Positions 1,840 to 55,401 of a DNA stretch of 64,000 nucleotides are shown here, one piece after another. Position 1 is the first letter of the stretch, and every line of letters begins with the position of its first letter. The position numbers and the translations under genes were made by a program. Source of the DNA: Buchnera aphidicola (Sipha maydis) (lineage in GTDB: Bacteria; Pseudomonadota; Gammaproteobacteria; Enterobacterales; Enterobacteriaceae); contig NZ_CP097205.1 in NCBI RefSeq assembly GCF_024029855.1, forward strand, positions 310,001 through 374,000, given 5' to 3'. The notes under the pieces are model-generated. The model was given only the letters and a program-made list of their open reading frames with translations. It made no database searches and was not told the DNA's origin.

Positions 1840-2967
1840 ATGAAAATTCCATTAAGTTTATATATTCACATTCCATGGTGTTTAACAAAATGTCCATATT
1901 GTGATTTTTATTCAAAATCAACAAAAAAAAAAATACCTGAAAAAAAATATATTACAAATCTTTTACTAGATTTACAAAATGATATTAAATTAATTAACTC
2001 AAGAAAAATACGTTCAATTTTTATAGGAGGAGGAACACCTAATTTAATTCATCCAAAATATATTAAATATTTAATACAAGAAATTAAAAAAAAAATTTTC
2101 TTTGCTAAAAATATAGAAATTACTTTAGAAGCCAACCCTAAATCAATTCATGAAAATGTTTTTTTTCAATATAAAGAAGCTGGTGTAAATAGATTATCTT
2201 TAGGAATTCAAAGTTTTCATGAAACACTTTTAAAAAAAATTCATAGAAAATATTCTTTTATTGAATTAATAAAAACAATTAAATATATTAGAAAAAAAAA
2301 ATTCACAAACATAAATTTTGATTTAATGTATGGACTTCCACAACAAACAATCCAAGAATCTTTACAAGATCTTTTGTATGCAATTAAATATAATCCATCA
2401 CATATATCGTGGTATCAATTATCTATTGAAAAAAATACACCGTTTTCAACAAAAAAAATTATTTTACCACATGAAAAAAAAATTTTATTAATGGAGAAGA
2501 AAGGAAAAAAAATTTTAAAAAAAAATAAATTCGTACAGTATGAAATATCTTCTTATACAAAAAATAAAAAAAAATGTCAACATAATCTGAACTATTGGAA
2601 TTTTGGAGATTATTTAGGTATCGGATGTGGAGCGCATGGAAAAATTACTTTAAAAAATAGAAAAATTCTCAGAACAATCAAAAATAAAAATATAAATAAA
2701 TTTTTAAATGGAGAGTATATACAAAAACAATATATTGTAAAAAAAAAAAATATTGCATTTGAATTTTTTTTAAATAATTTTCGTTTACATGCTCCATGTT
2801 TTAAAAAAAAATTTACACAATATACAGGTCTAAAAATCGAGAGTATTAAAAGTAATATCTATAAAGCAATAAAAAAAAAATACATTATAGAAAATAATGA
2901 TTCTTGGGAAACAACTAATCAAGGAAAATGTTTTCTAAATAATTTATTGCAAATATTTCTCGAATAA
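1840..2967 (+). CDS. hemW: HemW, radical SAM haem chaperone-like protein
   Basis: 375 residues (E. coli 378). The radical SAM cluster motif CxxxCxxC is Cys14, Cys18, Cys21 in HIPWCLTKCPYCDF. GGGTPN (SAM binding) and EITLEANP, GVNRLSLGIQSF and DLMYGLPQQT follow, all diagnostic of HemW over the oxygen-independent coproporphyrinogen oxidase HemN, which has a longer N-terminus. HemW delivers haem to membrane haemoproteins in other bacteria. Its start lies 56 bases after yggS. It converges on trmB, and a shared hairpin spans its stop codon region. Confidence 0.92.
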   Translation: MKIPLSLYIHIPWCLTKCPYCDFYSKSTKKKIPEKKYITNLLLDLQNDIKLINSRKIRSIFIGGGTPNLIHPKYIKYLIQEIKKKIFFAKNIEITLEANPKSIHENVFFQYKEAGVNRLSLGIQSFHETLLKKIHRKYSFIELIKTIKYIRKKKFTNINFDLMYGLPQQTIQESLQDLLYAIKYNPSHISWYQLSIEKNTPFSTKKIILPHEKKILLMEKKGKKILKKNKFVQYEISSYTKNKKKCQHNLNYWNFGDYLGIGCGAHGKITLKNRKILRTIKNKNINKFLNGEYIQKQYIVKKKNIAFEFFLNNFRLHAPCFKKKFTQYTGLKIESIKSNIYKAIKKKYIIENNDSWETTNQGKCFLNNLLQIFLE

Positions 2968-2998
2968 AGTTTTTTAAAATTAATTTTTAAAAAACTTT
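2966..2998. terminator. Bidirectional terminator-like hairpin between hemW and trmB
   Basis: A perfect 14-bp inverted repeat (AAAGTTTTTTAAAA / TTTTAAAAAACTTT) with a 5-base loop straddles the convergent stops, followed by T-rich sequence on either strand. The right arm includes the last codons and stop of trmB. It is AT-only apart from one G-C pair, so stability is modest; position and symmetry are the main support. Confidence 0.5.
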
Positions 2999-3682
2999 TT
3001 TATAAATTATTTCATAAATTTTACTTTTTTTAATATTTGCTTTTTGTTTAAAACGAGTAAAAAAATTATTTTTTTCTAAATAATATGATTGAAAATCTTT
3101 GGTAACACATTCGACTCCTGAAATATAATCAAGTATTTTAATAATATTTTTAGCGTATGAAGCAGAATCAGTAACAATATGCAATATTCCTTGAATAATT
3201 AATTTTTGTAATAACAAATAAATTATATTAGATTGCAACATTCTTCTTTTATAATGTTTATTTTTTGGCCATGGATCTGGAAAAAATATATTTATTACAG
3301 AAAAAGAAATATTTGTTGCATAATTTTTTAAAAAAAAAATAGCATCCAAATGAATAATTTTAATATTATTTAAATTATTTTTATAAATTTTTTTTAAACA
3401 AAAACATATCCCAGGAATATACACTTCAATTCCTAAAAATTGAACATCTTTATATAATTTTGCGAAATGAATTAAAGATTCTCCAAAACCAAAACCAATT
3501 TCTAAGATCACTGGAACACTCTTTTGAAAAATTTTTTTTACACTATTACAATCTTCTGCAATATTTAAACCAATTAATGGCCAAAGAAATTCTATAATAT
3601 TTTTTTTTTTCACACTTAATTTTCTATTTCTTAATCGAAAAGTCTTAATCTGAAAAAAATTTTCTTGAAAATTAATATTCAT
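2987..3682 (-). CDS. trmB: tRNA (guanine-N7)-methyltransferase TrmB
   Basis: 231 residues from the ATG at 3682 (E. coli 239); an in-frame TTG three codons upstream is a weaker alternative. It makes m7G46 in tRNA variable loops with SAM. The SAM pocket LEIGFGFGESL and the family signature FFPDPWPKNKHYKRR are both present, as is the C-terminal TDSASYA block. It is transcribed divergently from mutY, as in E. coli, and converges on hemW. Confidence 0.94.
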   Translation of the reverse strand: MNINFQENFFQIKTFRLRNRKLSVKKKNIIEFLWPLIGLNIAEDCNSVKKIFQKSVPVILEIGFGFGESLIHFAKLYKDVQFLGIEVYIPGICFCLKKIYKNNLNNIKIIHLDAIFFLKNYATNISFSVINIFFPDPWPKNKHYKRRMLQSNIIYLLLQKLIIQGILHIVTDSASYAKNIIKILDYISGVECVTKDFQSYYLEKNNFFTRFKQKANIKKSKIYEIIYKKVF

Positions 3683-3779
3683 AATATACAATTTAATAAA
3701 CTAATATTTTAAAAAAAATAAAAATTAAAAATAGATTTTGAAAAAAATATTTTTTTTATCTATTTCTAAATTTTGGTAT

Positions 3780-4808
3780 ATGTCATATATTATGAACTAT
3801 ATTTTTAATTTTTCAAGAACTATAATAAATTGGTTTCACTTACATGGAAGAAAAAATCTTCCTTGGCAAAAAAACCAAACTGCATATAAAACATGGATTT
3901 CAGAAATCATGTTACAACAAACGCAAGTTCAAGTAGTCATTCCATATTTTAAAAAATTTATTAAAAAAAATCCAAATATTCGAGATTTAACTAAAAATTC
4001 CTTAGATGAAATTCTTTTTATGTGGAGCGGACTAGGATTCTATAAACGCGCGAAAAATATTTATTTAACATCACAAATAATTAAAAAAAAATATAATAAT
4101 CAAATACCATTAAATTATTATGATTTAATTAAATTACCAGGAATAGGAAAATCTACTGCAGGAGCAATTTTATCATTAACCTTTAATTATTTTTTTCCCA
4201 TACTTGATGGAAACGTTAAAAGAATACTAAAAAGATTTTATCATTTAAAAGAAAAAAATTCTCAATTAGAAAAATCACTATGGAGAAAAATAAACAAATT
4301 ATTACCCATTCATAATGCACAGAAATTTAATCAAGCTATGATGGATTTAGGAAAATTAATTTGTAAAAAAAATCCCCTATGTCAGAAATGTCCGTTAGAA
4401 AAAAAATGTTTATATACTCATGAAAAAAATATACACAAAAAAAATATAAATATAAAAAAAAAAATTAAAAAATGTTTTTTTTTATTAATCAAATATAAAA
4501 ATTTTATTTATTTAAAAAAACAAAATCATAATATTTGGAAAAATTTATATTATTTTCCTTTATTTTTTAAAAAAAAAGAATTATTAAATTGGATAAAAAA
4601 AAAGAAAATCACTAAAAAAAGAAAAAATATAGAAAAATTTTTTCATCATTTTAATAATTATTCATTGTTAATTCAAGCAAAAATTATTAATTTAAGTAAA
4701 AAAAATATTAATCAAAAAAAATCAATCTGGTTTAATTTAATAAATCCACAAAAAATTGGAATTCCTTCTCCTGTAATAAAAATTTTTAAAAAAATAACAA
4801 AAAAATAA
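3780..4808 (+). CDS. mutY: Adenine DNA glycosylase MutY
   Basis: About 342 residues from ATG 3780 (ATG 3792 aligns equally well with the E. coli start; a TTG at 3738 would add an unsupported tail). It removes A mispaired with 8-oxoG. Visible parts: LPWQ, the adenine-recognition stretch EIMLQQTQVQVVIPYF, helix-hairpin-helix LPGIGKSTAGAI, catalytic Asp in PILDGNVKRIL and the 4Fe-4S loop. In that loop the first two cysteines are 5 residues apart (CKKNPLC) where E. coli has 6. A degenerate C-terminal NUDIX-like 8-oxoG domain remains. yggX follows after 23 bases. Confidence 0.93.
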   Translation: MSYIMNYIFNFSRTIINWFHLHGRKNLPWQKNQTAYKTWISEIMLQQTQVQVVIPYFKKFIKKNPNIRDLTKNSLDEILFMWSGLGFYKRAKNIYLTSQIIKKKYNNQIPLNYYDLIKLPGIGKSTAGAILSLTFNYFFPILDGNVKRILKRFYHLKEKNSQLEKSLWRKINKLLPIHNAQKFNQAMMDLGKLICKKNPLCQKCPLEKKCLYTHEKNIHKKNINIKKKIKKCFFLLIKYKNFIYLKKQNHNIWKNLYYFPLFFKKKELLNWIKKKKITKKRKNIEKFFHHFNNYSLLIQAKIINLSKKNINQKKSIWFNLINPQKIGIPSPVIKIFKKITKK

Positions 4809-4831
4809 ATAAAAAATAGGAAAATAAATAT

Positions 4832-5092
4832 ATGAAAAGAAAAATATATTGTTTTTTTTATAAACAAAAAATGCAAGGATTAAATTTTAAACTTTATCCA
4901 GGAAAAATAGGCGATAAAATATATCAAAAAATTTCTCAAAAAGCTTGGAATCAATGGATAAAAAAACAAACAATTTTAATCAATGAACAAAAATTAAATA
5001 TGCTTAATAAAAAAGATCAAAAAATCTTAGAAAAAAAAATGATCCAATTTCTTTTTAAAAACAATACTGTTAAAAAATATCAAAAAAAATAA
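4832..5092 (+). CDS. yggX: YggX, Fe(II) trafficking / oxidative protection protein
   Basis: 86 residues (E. coli 91), matching throughout: Cys7, LNFKLYPGKIGDKIY, AWNQWIKKQTILINE and the MIQFLF tail. YggX protects iron-sulfur proteins from oxidative damage and is part of the SoxRS response in E. coli, although no SoxS site can be recognised here. It follows mutY with a 23-base gap as in E. coli, and converges on sbcB with 12 bases between stops. The C-terminal glutamate-rich tail of E. coli is shortened. Confidence 0.92.
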   Translation: MKRKIYCFFYKQKMQGLNFKLYPGKIGDKIYQKISQKAWNQWIKKQTILINEQKLNMLNKKDQKILEKKMIQFLFKNNTVKKYQKK

Positions 5093-5104
5093 AATAAGAA
5101 TTTA

Positions 5105-6526
5105 TTAAGTAGATTTCAATAGTTTTTTTAAATATTTTAAATAAAATAATAATTTATCTAATAAATTCTGATTTTTTATATTATGTAAATATTTTTTTTT
5201 CAACAAAAAAATATTTTTTTTATACTTATAAATCTTTTTTTTATTAAAAAAATTTTTTAAATATTTTTTCCAACGCAATCTTTCTATTTGAGTTAAATAA
5301 TGAGGAAAATTTCGAGCTTTAAAAAAAAAATTTAAATCCGTAAAACGTGAATCATACATTTTCAAACCATGATTAATATTTTTTTTATTGATGTTTTCTC
5401 TAATTTTTTTCATTTGTATACGATCAAATAAAGTAAAAAATTTTTCATATAATTTATAATCACTATGTTTAAAATATTTATATTCAAAACGTATTCGTGA
5501 AAGTTTCTGAATTATATTTTTATTAAAAAATTTTTTAAAAAAAATAAAATTTTTTAAAAATCGACTTTGATTTAATTTTAATCGTGAAATATCTTTTTCA
5601 CGTAATACATTTATCGGAATTAAAATAGGTGATTTATTTAAAAAAATTAATCTCATTCCATGAGAAAATAAAACATTTATATTTTTATAAATTTCTTTTT
5701 TATTTTCTAAAAAAAAATCAGAATATAATCGATCTAAATCAAATGCAATTAAAATATTTTTATTTTCATAATGTAAAGTTAATGGAAATATACGAGAAAA
5801 ATTATTATTTTTAGATCCATAATAATGAGAAATATAAATTAATGGCTTTCTATAATTCTTTTCAATAAATTTTAATATTTTTTTTTTTTTTCTCATAAAA
5901 AATAAAAAACGAAAAAAATTAAAATTTTTTTTTTTTAATAACTTTAAAACTTCTATCGTAGCATAGACATCAGATAATGCATGATGAGCTTTATCATGAA
6001 AAAGATTGTTACTCTTAGAAAAATCTTGTAATTTAAAAGAAACACATTTTTTAACTTTATTCCAAGGCCAAGAAATACCAGAAGGACGTAATGCATAAAA
6101 AGCTCTGAGTAAATTGATTACATCCCATCTAGTATTATGGTTTTTCCAACTCCATTCATATGCATCAAAAAAATTTCTATAGAAAATATTTCTCGTTATT
6201 TCATCATCAAAAAGAATATTATTAAATCCTAAAATACAAGTGTTAGCTTGAATGAAAATATCATAAATTTTTTTTGAAAAATCAGATTCATTTAATCCAC
6301 TATTTAATAAAGTATATTGAGGTGTAATAGAAGTAATTAAAATAGATTCTGGATTAGGTAAATAATCTAATGGAGGGTAACAATATAATACAGTTGGATT
6401 AGAAATAACATTAAAATTTATATCTGTTCGTAAACAAGCAAATTGCGCTGGTCTATCCTTGACAGGATTAACTCCAAACGTTTCATAATCATAAAATAAA
6501 AAACTAAATTTAGAAAAATTTTTCAT
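5105..6526 (-). CDS. sbcB: Exodeoxyribonuclease I SbcB
   Basis: 473 residues (E. coli 475). It is a 3'-to-5' single-strand DNA exonuclease used in repair and recombination clean-up. The DEDDh exonuclease domain is clear: YDYETFG (catalytic Asp/Glu), RPAQFACLRTD, FNNILFDDEITRNIFYRNF, RWDVINLLRAFYALRP and HHALSDVYATI. The SH3-like and C-terminal helical domains follow, ending in the ARNFP block, with many lysine-rich substitutions. It is not adjacent to yggX in E. coli, so this junction is a rearrangement in the endosymbiont lineage. Confidence 0.94.
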   Translation of the reverse strand: MKNFSKFSFLFYDYETFGVNPVKDRPAQFACLRTDINFNVISNPTVLYCYPPLDYLPNPESILITSITPQYTLLNSGLNESDFSKKIYDIFIQANTCILGFNNILFDDEITRNIFYRNFFDAYEWSWKNHNTRWDVINLLRAFYALRPSGISWPWNKVKKCVSFKLQDFSKSNNLFHDKAHHALSDVYATIEVLKLLKKKNFNFFRFLFFMRKKKKILKFIEKNYRKPLIYISHYYGSKNNNFSRIFPLTLHYENKNILIAFDLDRLYSDFFLENKKEIYKNINVLFSHGMRLIFLNKSPILIPINVLREKDISRLKLNQSRFLKNFIFFKKFFNKNIIQKLSRIRFEYKYFKHSDYKLYEKFFTLFDRIQMKKIRENINKKNINHGLKMYDSRFTDLNFFFKARNFPHYLTQIERLRWKKYLKNFFNKKKIYKYKKNIFLLKKKYLHNIKNQNLLDKLLFYLKYLKKLLKST

Positions 6527-6815
6527 GAGATATAATTTTTTTGAAGAAAAAACTAATTATATAGTATATAAAATATATATAAAAAAATAGATAATAAAAT
6601 AAAATTAATTGATATTCTCAATGAATAATATTAATCTAGAAAAATTCGATCAAAAATTTAAAAAAACTCGCTTAAATATAAAATAGACTAAAAAAAATAA
6701 AATTTATAATTATGTAATAAAATATTTTAAAATATCTAAAAAAAAATCTAATAAATTAAAAAAATATTTTAATTTAAAAATAATGAAAAATTTATATAAT
6801 TAAAATAAAAAAATA

Positions 6816-6888
6816 CTCCTCCGACTGGGCTCGAACCAGTGACATACGGATTAACAGTCCGCCGTTCTACCAACTGAACTACAGAGGA
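6816..6888 (-). tRNA. tRNA-Asn (GTT)
   Basis: A 73-base cloverleaf on the minus strand: acceptor TCCTCTG / CGGAGGA with one G-T pair, D-arm AGTTCAGTTGGTAGAAC, anticodon loop CTGTTAA giving GTT, T-loop TTCGAGC, discriminator G. CCA is not encoded. The 289 bases between sbcB and this gene show no other feature. Confidence 0.96.
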
Positions 6889-7016
6889 AAACTTAATTGT
6901 ATCATAAATATTTAAAAAATCAATTTTTTCATAAAACAAAAAAATAATTACTAGATTATTCTAAAAAATTCTATTATAATTTTGTTTAAAATATTTTTCA
7001 TTTTAGAAAAAATTAA

Positions 7017-7089
7017 GGCCCTTTAGCTCAGCGGTTAGAGCAAGCGACTCATAATCGCTTGGTCGCTGGTTCGAGTCCAGCAAGGGCCA
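7017..7089 (+). tRNA. tRNA-Ile (CAT, lysidine type)
   Basis: 73 bases with acceptor GGCCCTT / AAGGGCC and anticodon loop CTCATAA. The body closely matches E. coli tRNA-Ile2 (ileX), including the anticodon arm GCGACTCATAATCGC and the TGGTCGCTGGTTCGAGTCC arm. It is therefore not a methionine tRNA: C34 should be changed to lysidine by TilS so that it reads ATA. tilS is not in this window. CCA is not encoded. Confidence 0.93.
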
Positions 7090-7159
7090 ATTTTGTAAAA
7101 TATCTTTTTTTTTACAAAAATTTTTTAATAAAAATATACAAAATTTAAAAAAGGTTTTT

Positions 7160-7813
7160 ATGAAACAATGGAAAAAAAAATTTATTGAATTTATGATAAA
7201 AAAAAAAATTTTAAAGTTTGGAAATTTCACACTAAAATGTAATAGAAAAAGCCCTTATTTTTTTAATATGGCACTTTTTCACACTGGAAAAGATTTATAT
7301 ACTTTAGGAACATTTTATGCTCAAGCATTAGTAAATTTAAATATAAAATTTGACTTATTATTTGGAATAGCTTATAAAGGCATACCTATTGTAATATCTA
7401 CTGTAATAGCTTTGAAAAAAATTTATAATATAAACATTAAATATTCTTTTAATAGAAAAGAAATTAAAAAATATGGAGAGAAAGGGAATACTGTAGGAAG
7501 TAAATTACATGGAAATATTGTCATTATTGATGATATCCTAACCGCTGGAACAGCAATAAAAAATACATTAAAATTTTTACTAAATAAAAAAAAAAAAATA
7601 TCAAACATATTAGTTGCATTAGATAGACAAGAATTCGGAAATAAAAATTCTTTTGCTAAAAATGATATTGAAAAAAAATACTCATGTAAAATATCTTCAA
7701 TAATTAATATTGATGATATTACTAATTATTTAAAAAGTAAAAAAATTATGAAAGAAAAATTAAAAATTTTATTAAAATATAGAGAAAAATATATTTTAAA
7801 TAAAATTAACTAA
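7160..7813 (+). CDS. pyrE: Orotate phosphoribosyltransferase PyrE
   Basis: 217 residues (E. coli 213). It joins orotate and PRPP to make OMP in pyrimidine synthesis. The PRPP loop IVIIDDILTAGTAI is intact, with the N-terminal LKFGNFTLKCNRKSPYFFN block and the flexible-loop region YSFNRKEIKKYGEKG. The ATG has an AAGG sequence about 10 bases upstream. It follows tRNA-Ile and overlaps the end of the convergent dut gene by 8 bases; in E. coli pyrE and dut are also neighbours. Confidence 0.95.
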   Translation: MKQWKKKFIEFMIKKKILKFGNFTLKCNRKSPYFFNMALFHTGKDLYTLGTFYAQALVNLNIKFDLLFGIAYKGIPIVISTVIALKKIYNINIKYSFNRKEIKKYGEKGNTVGSKLHGNIVIIDDILTAGTAIKNTLKFLLNKKKKISNILVALDRQEFGNKNSFAKNDIEKKYSCKISSIINIDDITNYLKSKKIMKEKLKILLKYREKYILNKIN

Positions 7814-34286: not shown

Positions 34287-34777
34287 ATGAATTATTTCGA
34301 ATACTTTAATTTACCACAAAAATTTCAAATTAATAAAAAAAAATTATTAAGAAAATATTACTCCCTACAAAAAAAATATCATCCTGATATGCATATAAAT
34401 TGTTCAACAAAAAAAAAAAAAATATTTTAAAAAGATCAATTTATATTAATAAAGGATATCAAATATTAAAAAATACAATTAAAAGAATACAATATCTTTT
34501 AAAAATAAATGGATTTGATATTAAATCTAATAAAACACACAACACTTTAGATCAAAAATTTTTATATAAGCAATACAAACTATATAAAAAACTAAATAAA
34601 ATACAACAAAAAAAAAACAAAAAAGCAATATTAAATTTTATACGTAAAATTGATTCTCTATTTAAAAAAAATCTTAAAAAAATAAAAATAAAATTAATAA
34701 AAAAATCTTGGAAAAAATCTTATATTATCTTTCAAAAAATTATTTTTTTAAAAAATTTTAAAAAAAAAATAAAATAA
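34287..34777 (+). pseudogene. hscB: HscB J-domain co-chaperone, frameshifted at A14
   Basis: From the ATG at 34287 (AAAGAGA upstream) the frame reads MNYFEYFNLPQKFQI ... KKYHPDMH, a J-domain with its HPD motif, then stops after an A14 run (34409-34422). The homology resumes in another frame (NILKRSIYINKGYQILKN ... YLLKINGFDI) to 34777. One extra A would restore one protein of about 163 residues (E. coli 171). HscB brings IscU to the Hsp70 HscA and stimulates its ATPase. Its partner gene is missing from the 112 bases before fdx. It may be a decaying gene or one rescued by slippage; the retained HPD argues for recent breakage or continued use. Confidence 0.85.
34409..34422 (+). repeat. A14 homopolymer at the hscB frameshift
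   Basis: Fourteen consecutive A at the point where the hscB reading frame breaks. Fifteen would restore it. Confidence 0.88.
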
Positions 34778-35234: not shown

Positions 35235-36611
35235 TTAATAATCTTTTTTATTATGAAAAGGATTTCTACTATTTTTAAATTCTAATTTTAGAGAAGAACC
35301 TAATAAATTCAAATGACATGAAAAAAAATTATTTAAATATTTCTTATACGAAAGAGATAAATTGTCTAAATTATTACCATGTATAACAATTATTGGTGGA
35401 TTTATTCCACCAAAATTTGCATACTTTAATGTAGATTTTTTTTTTCTATTTAACAATGGAGGTTTCTTTTTTTCTAAAGCAAGATATAAAATTTTTGTTA
35501 AAAATGAACTATTTATTTTTTTTTTAGAAATAAAATAAAATTTTTTAATTAATTGTAATAAAAACTTTCTAATATTTTTTGTAAAAAGAAATGATACAAA
35601 ATAAAATTTAATATTTTTTACAAATCGAAAGCGAAAATAAATATTTTCTTTAAAAGATATTTTTTCTGTCTTTGTTAAAATATCCCATTTATTTACAAGA
35701 ATAATTACAGGAAAACCAAATTTATTAATTAAATTCCATAAAACTAAATTTTGATTAGAAACAACTTTTTCAGAAGAATCAATAACCAATATTGATAAAT
35801 CAATTTTTCTCAATTGACTAATAGAATTTTTCACAAAAAATTTCTCTAAAAAAGAATTTATTTTAGATCTTCTACGTATTCCTGCTGTATCAAAAAAAAT
35901 ATATTTTACTTGATCATAATATGTAAAAGTTTGAATAATATCACCTGTAGTTCCAGGAAAATTAGATGTTATTAATCTATTATTATCTTGCACTAATTTA
36001 TTGATTAAAGTTGATTTTCCGACATTAGGTTTTCCAATTATCGCAATCTTGATTTTAACTATTTCTATATTTTTAAATATTTCTTTTTTAAATAATGAAT
36101 TTTCTTGTATTAAATTTTTTTTTTTAAAAAAAGATACTATTTTTTTTTTAAAAAAATAAATATCTTTTAAATTCAAAGCTGAAATTTTATAAATTTCTTT
36201 CAATCCGAGAGCATAAAAATCATTAATAAAATCTAAATTTTTTGTTTTATCAATTTTATTTATTATTAAAATAATTTTTTTTTTTTTTTTTCTTAACTTT
36301 TCGATAATTATTCTATCTTTGTAAGTTAATCCATATTTTGCATTAACAACAAAAAAAATAAAATCAGAGTTTTTAATTGACAAAGAAATTTGCAACAAAA
36401 TTTCTTTCTTCAAAACTTTATTAGAAGAAAAAAAACTCGGATTATCAATTAATGTAAAAAAAAATTTTTTTAAATGAACTTTACCAGTTTTCCGATCTCT
36501 CGTAACACCTTTCATTTTTTTTAAAACTAAAGAGTATTCATCTGTTAGATTATTAAATATTGTAGATTTCCCAACATTTTCATAACCAATTAAAGAAACG
36601 GTAAAATTCAT
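35235..36611 (-). CDS. der: Ribosome assembly GTPase Der (EngA)
   Basis: 458 residues (E. coli 490), the shortening falling in the linker and C-terminal tail. Two GTPase domains and a KH-like domain are seen. Domain 1 has G1 ENVGKSTIF and G4 NKID, but its G3 motif is DNPS where the family has DTGG/DTAG. Domain 2 has G1 GKPNVGKSTL, intact DTAGIRRRSK and NKWD. The KH-like end keeps KYANFGGINPPIIVIHGN. It contains an in-frame A17 run near the first G4 motif. bamB, which lies between der and yfgM in E. coli, is missing. Confidence 0.95.
   Translation of the reverse strand: MNFTVSLIGYENVGKSTIFNNLTDEYSLVLKKMKGVTRDRKTGKVHLKKFFFTLIDNPSFFSSNKVLKKEILLQISLSIKNSDFIFFVVNAKYGLTYKDRIIIEKLRKKKKKIILIINKIDKTKNLDFINDFYALGLKEIYKISALNLKDIYFFKKKIVSFFKKKNLIQENSLFKKEIFKNIEIVKIKIAIIGKPNVGKSTLINKLVQDNNRLITSNFPGTTGDIIQTFTYYDQVKYIFFDTAGIRRRSKINSFLEKFFVKNSISQLRKIDLSILVIDSSEKVVSNQNLVLWNLINKFGFPVIILVNKWDILTKTEKISFKENIYFRFRFVKNIKFYFVSFLFTKNIRKFLLQLIKKFYFISKKKINSSFLTKILYLALEKKKPPLLNRKKKSTLKYANFGGINPPIIVIHGNNLDNLSLSYKKYLNNFFSCHLNLLGSSLKLEFKNSRNPFHNKKDY
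36275..36291 (-). repeat. A17 homopolymer, in frame within der
   Basis: Seventeen A on the coding strand encode five lysines just before the G4 strand of domain 1. The frame is intact as sequenced, but slippage here would yield truncated Der from a share of transcripts. Confidence 0.85.
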
Positions 36612-46382: not shown

Positions 46383-48815
<2,433 letters not shown>

Positions 48816-49967: not shown

Positions 49968-51278
49968 TTATACAGATAGTTTTTTTAGTAAAATATTATA
50001 ATTTTTTTGGATAATAAGATTTTTATTATACAATTTTTTTATCTTTTTACATGCATATAAGACAGTTGTATGTGTTTTTTTATTAAAAAAATTTCCAATT
50101 TCTTGTAAACTATGTTTAGTTAGATTTTTAGAAAGAGTCATAGCTATTTGGCGTGGGAGTATAATAGATTTATTTTTTTTAATAGATAATAATTCAGATA
50201 ACTTAATATTATAATGTTTTGATACGATTTTTTGAATTTTTTTTATAGTAATTTTTTTTTTTTTTACTTGTAAAAAATCTTTTAATATTTTTTTTATAAG
50301 ATTTATAGTAATATTTTTATGTTTATTAAACAAAAGGTTTGCTTGAATTTTATTTAAAATACTTTCAAGTTCACGAACATTTGATTTAAAGTTGTTTGCA
50401 ATAAAATATATTATTCTGTATGGTAAAAAAATATTTTTTTCATGAGATTTTTTAATCAAAATTTTAATTCGTGTATTTTTTGTAGGAGTATTGATGCATA
50501 CACTTAATCCAGAATCTAGTCTTGATTGTAATCTTTCATTTATTCCTTTCATTTTGGTTGGATAACAATTAGAAGTAATAATAATTTGTTTATTTTTTTC
50601 AATTAAATCATATATAGTATAAAAAAATTCTTCTTGCGTTCTATTTTTATATGAAAAAAATTGAATATCTTCTATTATTAAAATATTTGCTGAACGGTAA
50701 TATTTTTTAAATTTTTCAATAGAATTATTTTTTAATGACTTAACCATTTTTTGCACGAAATGTTCAGATTTTATATATATTATTTTTTGATATTTTTTTT
50801 TTTCTAAAGAGTTTTTAATTGCATATAATAAATGAGTTTTTCCTAATCCTGTTTTTCCATATAAAAAAAATGGATTATAAAAATTTCCTGGATTTTGTGC
50901 TATATGATATGCTGATTGATATGCTAATTTATTAGATTTTCCAATAATAAAATTTTTGAATTTATACTTTTTTAAAACATTTTCCTGATTATTTTCATTT
51001 TTTTTTATATTATAGTTTTTAGATATTTGAATAATTTTTTTATTTATAATTAGTTTTATATGACTAGATTTGATATTAAAATATTTTTTTACTAATATTT
51101 TTATTTTTTTTAAATATTTTTCTTTAATCCAAAGTAAAAAAAAATTGTTGGGAGTATATAAAAAAAAATTTTTTTTTTTAATTTTTGGTTGTAAAGGGCG
51201 TATCCACATATTAAATTCACTTTGTGGTATTTTTTTTTTAAAATAATTAATACATTTTTTCCATTTTAAATAAAACAT
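49968..51278 (-). CDS. dnaA: Replication initiator DnaA
   Basis: 436 residues (E. coli 467), shortened in the domain II linker. Domain I: WKKCINYFKKKIPQSEFNMWIRPL. AAA+ domain: Walker A KTGLGKTHLLYAI, Walker B ILIIEDIQF, sensor and arginine-finger block GINERLQSRLDSGL. Domain IV: LPRQIAMTLSKNLTKHSLQEIGNFF, then KKTHTTVLYA where the universal signature is DHTTV. The Asp is replaced by Thr402, a residue that reads bases in the DnaA box. It is divergent from rpmH. Confidence 0.97.
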   Translation of the reverse strand: MFYLKWKKCINYFKKKIPQSEFNMWIRPLQPKIKKKNFFLYTPNNFFLLWIKEKYLKKIKILVKKYFNIKSSHIKLIINKKIIQISKNYNIKKNENNQENVLKKYKFKNFIIGKSNKLAYQSAYHIAQNPGNFYNPFFLYGKTGLGKTHLLYAIKNSLEKKKYQKIIYIKSEHFVQKMVKSLKNNSIEKFKKYYRSANILIIEDIQFFSYKNRTQEEFFYTIYDLIEKNKQIIITSNCYPTKMKGINERLQSRLDSGLSVCINTPTKNTRIKILIKKSHEKNIFLPYRIIYFIANNFKSNVRELESILNKIQANLLFNKHKNITINLIKKILKDFLQVKKKKITIKKIQKIVSKHYNIKLSELLSIKKNKSIILPRQIAMTLSKNLTKHSLQEIGNFFNKKTHTTVLYACKKIKKLYNKNLIIQKNYNILLKKLSV

Positions 51279-51533
51279 TTAATTATACTCCACAAGAAAA
51301 AATATTAAGTTTCTAATTTAATAGAATATTAAATTGAAAAATTTTTATTTATATTTTGAGAAATAAAAATAAAGAAAATGATTATATGATGTTATAATGT
51401 ATAATAAAAATATATTTTAATTTTTTTTATAATATATTATTATTTTTGTATTTATAAATATTTCAGAAAATATAAATTTAAAAATTTTTTATTTTTTTTA
51501 AATAAAAATTCATTTATATTAGGTTTTAGGATT

Positions 51534-51677
51534 ATGAAAAGAACTTTTCAACCATCAGTTTTAAAAAAAAATCGAGTACACGGTTTTAGAAAAAGAATGT
51601 CTACTAAAAATGGTCGTCATATTTTATCTCGAAGAAGAGCAAAAGCGCGGTTTTTTTTAACAATTTCTTCTAAATAA
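51534..51677 (+). CDS. rpmH: 50S ribosomal protein L34
   Basis: 47 residues (E. coli 46), too short for many gene finders. [39 protein letters not shown] and a slightly altered end FFLTISSK. The AGGTTTTAGG before the ATG offers a ribosome binding site. It is first in rpmH-rnpA-yidC-mnmE, divergent from dnaA as in almost all bacteria. Confidence 0.97.
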
Positions 51678-51696
51678 TACGATTTAAAAATCTCTT

Positions 51697-52047
51697 GTGA
51701 AAAAATTTTCTTTTAAAAAAAAATTTAGATTATTAAGTTCGCAACAATATAAAAATGTTTTTAAACATTCTTATATAGTAAAATTTAAGGAGATCTTTAT
51801 ATTTTCTCGAAAAAATAATGTAAAATATTCTCGATTAGGTATTTCAATTGCAAAAAAAAATATAAAAAAAGCTAATAAAAGAAATTATTTTAAAAGAGTT
51901 ATTAGAGAATTTTTTCGCATTAATAAAGAAAATTTTTGTAAAATGGATTTTGTTGTTAATATAAAAAGACAAGATATAAAATCTCATAAATTTTTTTTGA
52001 AGAGATTGAGTTTTTTATGGTATAAAAATTTTTTTAAACCAAAATAA
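51697..52047 (+). CDS. rnpA: Ribonuclease P protein component RnpA
   Basis: 116 residues (E. coli 119) from a GTG start 19 bases after rpmH. FRLLSSQQYKNVF, the RNA-binding ISIAKKNIKKANKRNYFKRVIREFFR (RNR motif) and MDFVVNIKR identify it. It assists the RNase P RNA in maturing tRNA 5' ends. yidD, which follows in E. coli, is absent from the 142 bases before yidC. Confidence 0.95.
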   Translation: MKKFSFKKKFRLLSSQQYKNVFKHSYIVKFKEIFIFSRKNNVKYSRLGISIAKKNIKKANKRNYFKRVIREFFRINKENFCKMDFVVNIKRQDIKSHKFFLKRLSFLWYKNFFKPK

Positions 52048-52189
52048 ATTGTTTTAAGATGCGAATGTTTTTTTATAATATTTAAATTAATTATTTTACT
52101 TTAACTAAATTTTAATAATTTAAAATTTAAAAAAAAAGATTAATTTAATAACTTACTAACAAATATATTAAATAAAAGAGCAGAAAAAT

Positions 52190-53976
52190 ATGAATTATAG
52201 ACGAATTTTTTTTATTTTTTCTTTTATCGTTGTTTCTTTTTTTTTATGGCATGTATTGCATAATAAGAATTCTTCAGAGAATATAAATTCTACTAAAGAT
52301 AGTTCTGTAAAAACTCAGCAAAATGATAAAAATGATCAACAAAATCAAGATCCGAATAAGCCAAAAGAAGCTCCAAAAACACCAGAAAAAACAGAAAATC
52401 CAAATGCTCCAAAAGAAGCTCCAAAAACACCAGAAAAAACAGAAAATCCAAATGCTCCAAAAGAAGCTCCAAAAACACCAGCGAAAACAGAAAATCCAAA
52501 TGCTCCGAAAGAAGCTCCAAAAACACCAGCGAAAACAGAAAATCCAAATGCTCCGAAAGAAGCTCCAAAAACACCGATAAAAGTAGAAACTCCGAGTGCT
52601 CCGAAAGAAGCTCCAAAAACACCGATAAAAGTAGAAACTCCGAGTGCTCCAAAAAATGAAGTAAAAAAACAAGAAGATGATATAAATGATCATAGCTATG
52701 ATGAAGCAGCGAGTCAAGGAGATGCTGATCATATTGATGATGTTGCAGATTTAGTTTCTAAAAAAGATAATAATTCTTATAAATTTGAAATTTTTCAAAA
52801 TAATATTTCAAAGAAACAATCTAGTTTTTTTTTTTAAAAAATTTGAATAAAAAAAAATATTTTCAGTTAAATAATAATATTTATGATTTGAGTAAGAAAA
52901 AAATATCTAAAAATTTTTTGCGAAAATCATTAAATATTATTAACGTACAAGGATTATCATGTAATACTGATGATTTATATGGTTTTTCTCAAAATATAAT
53001 TCATCTATACAATAATAAAACTTTTCAGGTAAATTGTTCGAATGATAATCAATTTTTAGATAAAAATTTTTACAATAGACATTTTACAGAGTTGAAAAAA
53101 TTATTTTCTCATAATAGTAATTTTTTTCACGTAGTGATTGTAAGAATTTTAAATTTTGTTTGTTACAATATTTTTGAGTTTCTTTCTACTCTTAAAAAAA
53201 ATATATTTTTATTTTTTTTTTTATCAAATTATAAAAAAAATTTTTTTTTAGATTCTCTGGTTGATACAAAAGTTCAAAAAGAAGAGTTATCTGTTGTAAA
53301 TAATAATAAATCAACAGTTAATTATGGATTTTTTTGGTTTTTGTCTCAACCTTTATTTATATTATTAAAATTTTTTTATAGAATAATAGGAAATTGGGGA
53401 TTTTCTATAATTTTATTAACAATATTAATACGTTTATTAATGTATCCTTTAACAAAATCTCAATATCTTTCTATGATACATTTAAAAAATTTACAACCTA
53501 AGTTAGATTTTTTGAAAGAAAAATATAAAAACAATACAACTAAAATGAGCGAGAAAGTTGTTAAATTATATCAGAAAAATAATCTTTCTCCTTTTTCAGG
53601 ATTTTTTTCATTAATTATTCAAATGCCAATTTTTTTAGCTTTTTATTATACTTTAACTAATACATCTGAATTAAAAAATGCTCCTTTTATATTTTGGATT
53701 CATGATCTTTCAAATTATGATCCATTTTATATACTTCCAGTGATTATGGGGGTAACGATGTTAATAACACAGAAGATTTCTTCGCAAAAAAGTCTTCAAG
53801 AAATTTTATCAGGGAGTATGCAAGAAAAGTTAATGATGTTGTTACCAATATTTTTTATAGTATTTTTTTTATGGTTTCCGTCTGGATTGGTTCTGTATTA
53901 TATTGTAAGTAATGTATTTAGCATTGTACAACAAAAATATGTTTATGATGAATTTAACAAAAAAAAATTAATTTAA
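52190..53976 (+). CDS. yidC: Membrane insertase YidC, with a repeat-expanded spacer and a frameshift at T11
   Basis: Two frames. 52190-52837 encodes the first membrane span (RIFFIFSFIVVSFFLWHVLH, like VIALLFVSFMIWQAW of E. coli), then six 16-residue PKEAPKTP-type repeats. 52843-53976, in the next frame, encodes the conserved insertase core from VNYGFFWFLSQPLF through IGNWGFSIILLTILIR (with the functional Arg), FSLIIQMPIFLAFYYTL and FFLWFPSGLVLYYIVSN. One extra T in the T11 run at 52825-52835 fuses them into 595 residues (E. coli 548). The periplasmic P1 domain between is hardly recognisable. In E. coli most of P1 is dispensable, the core is essential. Alternatively the core is translated alone from TTG 52843, without the first span. 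Confidence 0.85.
52349..52654 (+). repeat. 48-bp tandem repeat (six copies plus a partial) in yidC
   Basis: Each 48-bp unit encodes a 16-residue block such as NPNAPKEAPKTPEKTE. Six full copies cover residues 54-149 and a partial one adds TPSAPK. Variants come in neighbouring pairs at the last positions (EKTE twice, AKTE twice, IKVE twice), which points to stepwise duplication. The region is richer in G and C than its surroundings and is open in several frames on both strands as a by-product. Confidence 0.93.
52825..52835 (+). repeat. T11 homopolymer at the yidC frameshift
   Basis: Eleven consecutive T followed by six A. The first yidC frame reads Phe-Phe-Phe-stop through it; twelve T would join it to the downstream insertase frame. 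Confidence 0.85.
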
Positions 53977-54030
53977 TTTTTTTTAAAAAAAAATTTTCTT
54001 CTAAAATAATAATCATTCTTTTAAAAATAT

Positions 54031-55401
54031 ATGTCTGATACAACAATCGTTGCTCAAGTAACTCCTCAAGGGAATGGTGGAGTTTATATAGTAAGAATTT
54101 CTGGTAAAAAATCTCATAGAGTTTCTTTAGATGTTTTAGGAAAAATTTTAAAACCTAGATATGCTAGTTATGTAAAATTTTTTGATGTGAATAGTGAAGT
54201 TTTAGATCAAGGTATTGGAATATGGTTTCCTGCACCTAATTCATATACAGGAGAAGATGTGCTTGAATTACAAGGTCATGGAAATAGTTATATTGTTAAA
54301 CTATTAATTAAAAGAATTCTAAAAATACCAGGAATACGTATTGCTCGACCAGGAGAATTTTCTGAAAGAGCTTTTTTAAATGATAAAATAGATTTAACAC
54401 AAGCAGAATCTATTATAGATTTAATTAATGCAAGTTCTGAATCAGCAGTGAAAGCATCTTTAAAATCTTTAAATGGATCTTTTTCAGATAAAATTAAAAA
54501 TATTATTAATAAGGTTGTTGATATTCGTGTAATGTTAGAATCAGAATTAAATTTTTCAGAAGAAGAAGATTTAAATATAAATTTTAAAAAAAAATTTTTA
54601 AAAAAAATAAAAAATATTATTAATTGTTTAGATAATTTATTATGTTTATCAAAAAATAGAAAAATTATACAAAATGGAATAAAAGTTGTAATTGCTGGTT
54701 TTCCAAATACTGGGAAATCTAGTTTTTTTAATTTATTGTCATGTAAAAAATTTTCTATAGTAACAAATATTAAAGGAACGACAAGAGATTTAATTCATAA
54801 TAAAATTTATTTTAATAAATTTCTTATAGAATTAACTGATACTGCAGGTATACGTAGAACGCAAAATAAAGTTGAAAAAATTGGTATTTCTCTTGCTAAA
54901 AAAGAAATTTATAAATCTGAAATTTTATTTTTTTTAATAGATATTACTAAAAATAAAAATGATCAATTGAAAAAGTTTTTCAAGTTTATTCAAAAACTTC
55001 CAAGCTCTATTACTATTATTTTAATTTGTAATAAAATCGATTTAACAAATATTCCTCCGCATTTATCTATTTATAAAAATATACATTGTATTTATATGTC
55101 AATTAAAAAAAAAATCGGATTAGATATTTTTATTAAATATTTTAAAAAAATTTTAAAGAAGTATAATTATGATGTTTGTGGAGAAAATTTCTTTTTAGCA
55201 CGGCAAAGACATTTAGAAGAAATAATTTTAGCCAAAAAGGAATTAATTTTAGGTAAGAAGGAATGGAAAAAAAATAAAAATTATGAAGTAATAGCTTATT
55301 TTTTACAAAATGCTCAAAATGCGTTAAATAGAGTTACTGGAAAAATTTTTTCTCGCGATATTCTAAATAAAATTTTTTCTCGTTTTTGTATAGGAAAATA
55401 A
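54031..55401 (+). CDS. mnmE: tRNA modification GTPase MnmE (TrmE)
   Basis: 456 residues (E. coli 454). N-terminal folate-binding domain (TIVAQVTPQGNGGVYIVRISG), helical domain with RPGEFSERAFLNDKIDLTQAE, GTPase domain with G1 AGFPNTGKSSFFN, DTAGIRRTQNKVE and NKID, and the C-terminal catalytic FCIGK. It acts with MnmG on U34 of tRNAs. It ends the rpmH operon block. Confidence 0.96.
   Translation: MSDTTIVAQVTPQGNGGVYIVRISGKKSHRVSLDVLGKILKPRYASYVKFFDVNSEVLDQGIGIWFPAPNSYTGEDVLELQGHGNSYIVKLLIKRILKIPGIRIARPGEFSERAFLNDKIDLTQAESIIDLINASSESAVKASLKSLNGSFSDKIKNIINKVVDIRVMLESELNFSEEEDLNINFKKKFLKKIKNIINCLDNLLCLSKNRKIIQNGIKVVIAGFPNTGKSSFFNLLSCKKFSIVTNIKGTTRDLIHNKIYFNKFLIELTDTAGIRRTQNKVEKIGISLAKKEIYKSEILFFLIDITKNKNDQLKKFFKFIQKLPSSITIILICNKIDLTNIPPHLSIYKNIHCIYMSIKKKIGLDIFIKYFKKILKKYNYDVCGENFFLARQRHLEEIILAKKELILGKKEWKKNKNYEVIAYFLQNAQNALNRVTGKIFSRDILNKIFSRFCIGK

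Follow-up and report, generated by a model that had tools for sequence, protein, structure and literature searches.

The genomes of Buchnera and Blochmannia reportedly carry homopolymer frameshifts that are corrected by transcriptional slippage, as is said to have been described by Tamas et al. in 2008 and Wernegreen et al. in 2010. Programmed -1 ribosomal frameshifting of the dnaX type is a further known system, in which a U run can be the slippery stretch. The available parts of published surveys list 1 to 18 homopolymer frameshifts in each of eight other Buchnera genomes (PMC3164680) and eight frameshifts in A/T runs, possibly rescued, in Blochmannia vafer (PMC3017870). RNA polymerase slippage is documented for both genera, and according to one review 12-50% of transcripts are corrected at the poly(A) runs of these symbionts (PMC5009743). 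In the accessible text of a later transcriptome survey no restored frames are reported (PMC5574713). The yidC gene of Buchnera from Sipha maydis described here resembles the slippage-corrected genes in that a single indel lies in a long A/T run, the rest of the gene is intact, evolution is not faster and the host genome is that of an AT-rich insect symbiont. It differs from them in that yidC is affected, with T as the repeated base of its coding strand, the break falls in the spacer of a lost domain and correction is presumed. Homopolymer frameshifts and their rescue are already published, and yidC is a further case of the same kind; no yidC frameshift was found in the openly accessible literature on Buchnera frameshifts, as far as its available text goes. 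The less familiar part of the case is a proline-rich repeat in place of the periplasmic P1 domain.

We analysed a window of 64,000 nucleotides, in which ORF translation places yidC in two frames on the plus strand, 52190-52837 and 52843-53976, meeting at a run of eleven T at 52825-52835. Thus, yidC of the Sipha maydis symbiont is split at an 11-T run, the presumed slippage site. The 5' part (52190..52837) runs over 215 amino acids from ATG to TAA and comprises TM1 (codons 3-23) and a periplasmic spacer. It ends in Ser-Ser-Phe-Phe-Phe-stop, the last T of the run being the first base of the TAA (52835..52837, plus strand). The core frame is open five bases on, from TTG 52843, and this 3' part (52843..53976, 377 amino acids) consists of a 157-residue tail followed by the insertase core (residues 158-377). 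Run and ORF reading bear out the sequence-only reading in its coordinates, the T11 run, the Phe-Phe-Phe-stop and the next frame five bases later, and its count of 595 residues for a joined product adds up correctly (215 + 3 + 377). A second T11 run (53212..53222, plus strand) lies inside the open core frame. The gene order, presumably rpmH-rnpA-yidC-mnmE, is the usual one. In the whole genome of 462,390 bases a single yidC match and no second copy were found.

The core ORF belongs to the YidC/Oxa1/Alb3 insertase family (PF02096, 1.3e-53, 181.8 bits at a cut-off of 35). PDB chains named YidC match it at 1.4e-73 over residues 143-374; we take 4utq and 3wvf to be E. coli YidC. The positive residue of the groove is present as R197, which is aligned with arginine in relatives and PDB chains and presumably corresponds to residue 366 of E. 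coli YidC. An AlphaFold model of the 377-aa ORF has 202 of 377 residues at a pLDDT of at least 70, with the confident helices within 158-377 and pLDDT below 50 for residues 1-157. Groove arginine and core helices are therefore retained in the Sipha core. In the 5' frame the predicted signal anchor TM1 is present. A dG scan, run with parameters modelled on a published predictor, gave the Sipha TM1 -2.6, the lowest of five TM1 segments scanned (others -1.65 to -2.53). Against 13 relatives it is identical at a mean of 10.8 of 20 sites, and the relatives among each other range from 8.8 to 12.7. TM1, the homologous core and the groove arginine are thus common to Sipha and E. coli YidC, but in place of P1 the Sipha gene has a proline-rich repeat in six copies and a long unstructured tail, and it is read in two frames.

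The earlier statement that both halves are preserved without a gap stands for the reading frames and fails for P1 (PF14849), which is unrecognizable in Sipha yidC apart from a 21-aa stub (14.4 bits, below the cut-off of 24), a loss that escaped the sequence-only reading. The P1 family was found in eight of 11 genomes of the genus, the three without it being Sipha and two that we call G005 and G009, in a search whose control matched in four of 14 genomes, E. coli included. The position of P1 in the relatives is occupied in Sipha by six 48-bp repeats (52361..52654, plus strand), coding PKEAPKTP[EAI]K[TV]E[NT]P[NS]A, with a GC content of 0.40 in a window of 0.22. The linker that they encode is rich in proline and lysine, and the array is probably recent because copies 1-2 and copies 5-6 are identical in pairs. 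A protein database search found no homologue of the linker. The 5' ORF as a whole had no relative at E 0.01, and its residues 1-60 had none at E 10, with one candidate; the search thus yielded no database entry for the 5' ORF, and no annotation supports it. On the minus strand, all four terminator-like sites fall within the repeat. SecF of the SecD/SecF pair binds P1, according to the accessible part of one report (PMC7618853). The SecDF family PF02355 was matched in none of the 11 genus genomes and in 12 of 14 controls, and loss of P1 could be possible because this Sec partner is absent from the genus sample.

Relatives show how the gene is usually organized. In nine of ten other genomes of the genus yidC is one open frame of 539-559 amino acids, and in a wider family sample the core was matched in 143 of 149 genomes, our own included. 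The best-scoring protein of the genus sample is that of G009 (P0003), which has lost P1 as well and keeps TM1 and core; unlike Sipha yidC, it is a single unbroken frame of 539 amino acids without such a repeat. The second-best database match, P0002 (536 amino acids, contig of 466,974 bases), is similarly close to Sipha YidC (51% for P0002 and 49% for P0003 in alignment A1), but it is unbroken and has kept P1 (181.8 bits). The third genome without P1, G005, has a 226-aa frame and 15 stops in the matched yidC stretch; from the presumed rnpA to the core, about 890 bases hold no long frame. In this locus (L011, about 900-2450) YidC is core-only, and AT-rich DNA with no long frame is what is left of TM1 and P1. 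The 218-aa core frame starts at its own ATG, with a tail of about 17 residues ahead of the core proper. G005 thus appears to translate the YidC core alone, so that loss of both TM1 and P1 does occur in the genus; it shares with Sipha the loss of P1 and the retained core, and differs from it in having lost TM1.

Is the split gene alive? We compared relative rates in three genomes, Sipha, G009 and the outgroup G007, over 47 ORF pairs that are reciprocal best matches, some few of them probably shadow ORFs. On the 218 sites of the yidC core the Sipha branch measures 0.129, the 26th lowest value among the 47. This value is mid-range, hence evolution of the core shows no acceleration in Sipha. At 0.274 the G009 branch is the second longest of 47. 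The fast G009 core accounts for most of the low Sipha/G009 ratio of 0.47, the third lowest in the set, which is therefore no sign of extra constraint in Sipha. Both spacer parts, although junk-like and without a recognizable domain, are also open. Outside the repeat, the 5' part has 82 codons, which are stop-free with 7.8 stops expected, an outcome reached in two of 3000 shuffles; taken singly, the two pieces are stop-free in 148 and 13 of 3000. For the 154 codons of the core tail 13.7 stops were expected, and no shuffle of 3000 was stop-free. Such shuffles test openness of the frame and not function. In G009 the 291 codons replacing P1 are likewise stop-free (25.2 expected, none of 3000 shuffles), and since that spacer is open without P1, a link between TM1 and core in one chain seems selected there. 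With a core that is not accelerated, a conserved TM1 and a stop-free spacer, we agree with the sequence-only reading that this does not resemble a dead gene. Conservation would tell us little, though, if the frameshift arose only very recently. F-ATPase subunits are clients of YidC, and atpA and atpE are intact in Sipha. In G009 the ATP synthase operon (G009:C1, about 2300-7800, in L120) is decaying: its atpA best match has 24 stops, the matches to atpB, atpH, atpG and atpD are spread over several frames, and atpE is open. The ATP synthase genes decaying there are open in our window; the gene names in both genomes are presumptive.

Nanopore R9.4.1 reads tend to call homopolymers short. The T11 run might hence be a run-length artefact or a polymorphism, such that the run is in frame in most genomes, the count of eleven comes from a miscall or from sampling, and yidC is an ordinary intact gene. 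The draft was indeed made from R9.4.1 reads with fast calling and assembled with meta-Flye; it was, however, polished in several Pilon rounds with MiSeq 2x300 reads (PMC9317480). The window holds 35 A/T runs of at least 11, of which 28, including lengths of 12, 13, 14, 17 and 19, lie in orthologous stretches unbroken with respect to G009 or G007, which argues against an artefact; two lie at splits and the remaining five, the second yidC run among them, fall outside this comparison. Runs of 19 (48150-48168, in what we take to be gyrB) and 17 (36275-36291) sit inside unbroken orthologous genes, hence even very long runs are kept in frame in this genome. The yidC split is not a chance outcome: of the ORFs of G009 and G007, 57 each match the window and four each were flagged; presumed hscB is frame-split with both genomes, yidC with G009 (G007 matched the core only), and the remaining flags are partial matches or due to the window edge. 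The two splits at runs are those of yidC (T11) and hscB (A14). The latter, a DnaJ-domain gene at 34287-34774 that is probably hscB, also by its position, is in two frames at the A14 run 34409-34422, and the rest of it seems intact. That two of about 57 compared window genes are split, both at long runs, favors an artefact, the more so as this share exceeds that in Blochmannia, where each genome has 584-609 protein genes and four to eight of its genes are frameshifted. Polymorphism would be in line with single-base indels that vary within other Buchnera populations, as stated in the available part of PMC3164680. The database, on the other hand, holds as top match of 5415 a protein, P0001, with 377 amino acids, the same start and four of 377 residues different from the Sipha core ORF, on a contig of 462,833 bases compared to 462,390 for our own genome. 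Judged from this protein, from which the run length is deduced, P0001 probably comes from a second strain in which yidC is interrupted likewise. A near-identical short form on another contig makes a lone sequencing slip unlikely, and no intact YidC of about 595 amino acids was among the best 120 of 5415 matches (8000 best candidates scored). Altogether, we regard an artefact or polymorphism as rather improbable, yet worth keeping in mind.

The existence of P0001 in the 377-aa form would also suit a YidC made of the core alone, by re-initiation at TTG 52843 or a later start, as an N-out, Oxa1-like five-span protein; the 5' part would then be a mere remnant or encode a small protein of its own. 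G005 keeps the core alone in the same genus, and P1 is dispensable in E. coli, as far as the available part of PMC4124156 states. However, the G005 core starts from an ATG with some 17 residues in front, whereas the Sipha tail is 157 residues long and modelled without confidence. No membrane segment is predicted in this tail, where the best dG of the scan is +2.03; the value belongs to residues 94-114, after TTG 53092, which we rejected as a new signal anchor because it is too weak. Up to codon 185 the core frame has no ATG, its possible starts being five TTG and one GTG, and no Shine-Dalgarno-like stretch was seen upstream of 52843. TM1, moreover, would have no reason to stay conserved. Core-only translation is the weaker reading owing to the 157-residue tail and the missing signal, and we think it unlikely. 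A very recent pseudogene, its function lost or taken over and its decay just begun, would explain the frame break and have a parallel in the six of 149 family genomes without a core match; five of these measure 0.2-1.2 Mb, and the sixth, at 3.3 Mb, may be a search miss. Against it stand the lack of a second copy in the genome, a core that is not accelerated, the same state in P0001, a protein 1% apart, and the retained atpA, atpE, groove arginine and core helices. This we consider highly improbable.

Among slippage rescue, separate translation of the core and a sequencing error, the options offered by the sequence-only reading, we infer that slippage rescue is best supported. We see about an even chance that T11 is a real, fixed or nearly fixed frameshift in a working gene and that slippage on U11 joins TM1, linker and core. 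RNA polymerase would slip on the U11/A11 tract and add (or drop) bases in part of the transcripts; alternatively, ribosomes may slip back one base on the U11 tract. The slipped fraction would read into the core frame and yield one six-span YidC of about 595 residues, in which TM1 serves as the N-in signal anchor and a proline-rich linker in the periplasm takes the place of P1 ahead of the five-span core, and the unslipped product of TM1 and linker would be a by-product. Since the tail is without a predicted membrane segment, only TM1 would give the right topology. With its strong TM1, the fused chain is predicted to have normal topology, while a core-only protein would need to bring a long tail without a signal through the membrane. 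The U run precedes the 5' stop in the right frame for -1 slippage, a weak indication because any such run qualifies. For programmed -1 frameshifting the U run would thus fit in kind and direction, but Sipha has no significant structure downstream of the run (z -1.64, with 15 of 200 shuffles reaching the same stability, for nested pairs over 100 bases), and for this reason polymerase slippage is probably likelier than ribosomal slippage. An RNA element in 51000-54500 was discarded as well, the one Rfam match (E 0.031, 20.5 bits, gathering score 41) being attributable to chance.

A stronger version, which is possible but which we hold only tentatively, is that the only YidC of the Sipha symbiont is made solely via slippage at a fixed U11 and that the new proline-rich repeat replaces P1 and tethers TM1 to the core. 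If this is true, the annotated 377-aa protein is not the real one, and the supply of every membrane protein inserted by YidC depends on an error process. A normally essential insertase would then be made only by decoding errors, showing how far a symbiont can tolerate frame damage in a core gene. With P1 kept, P1 lost but the core still tethered, and the core alone, three states occur in one genus, a natural experiment on the roles of TM1 and P1.
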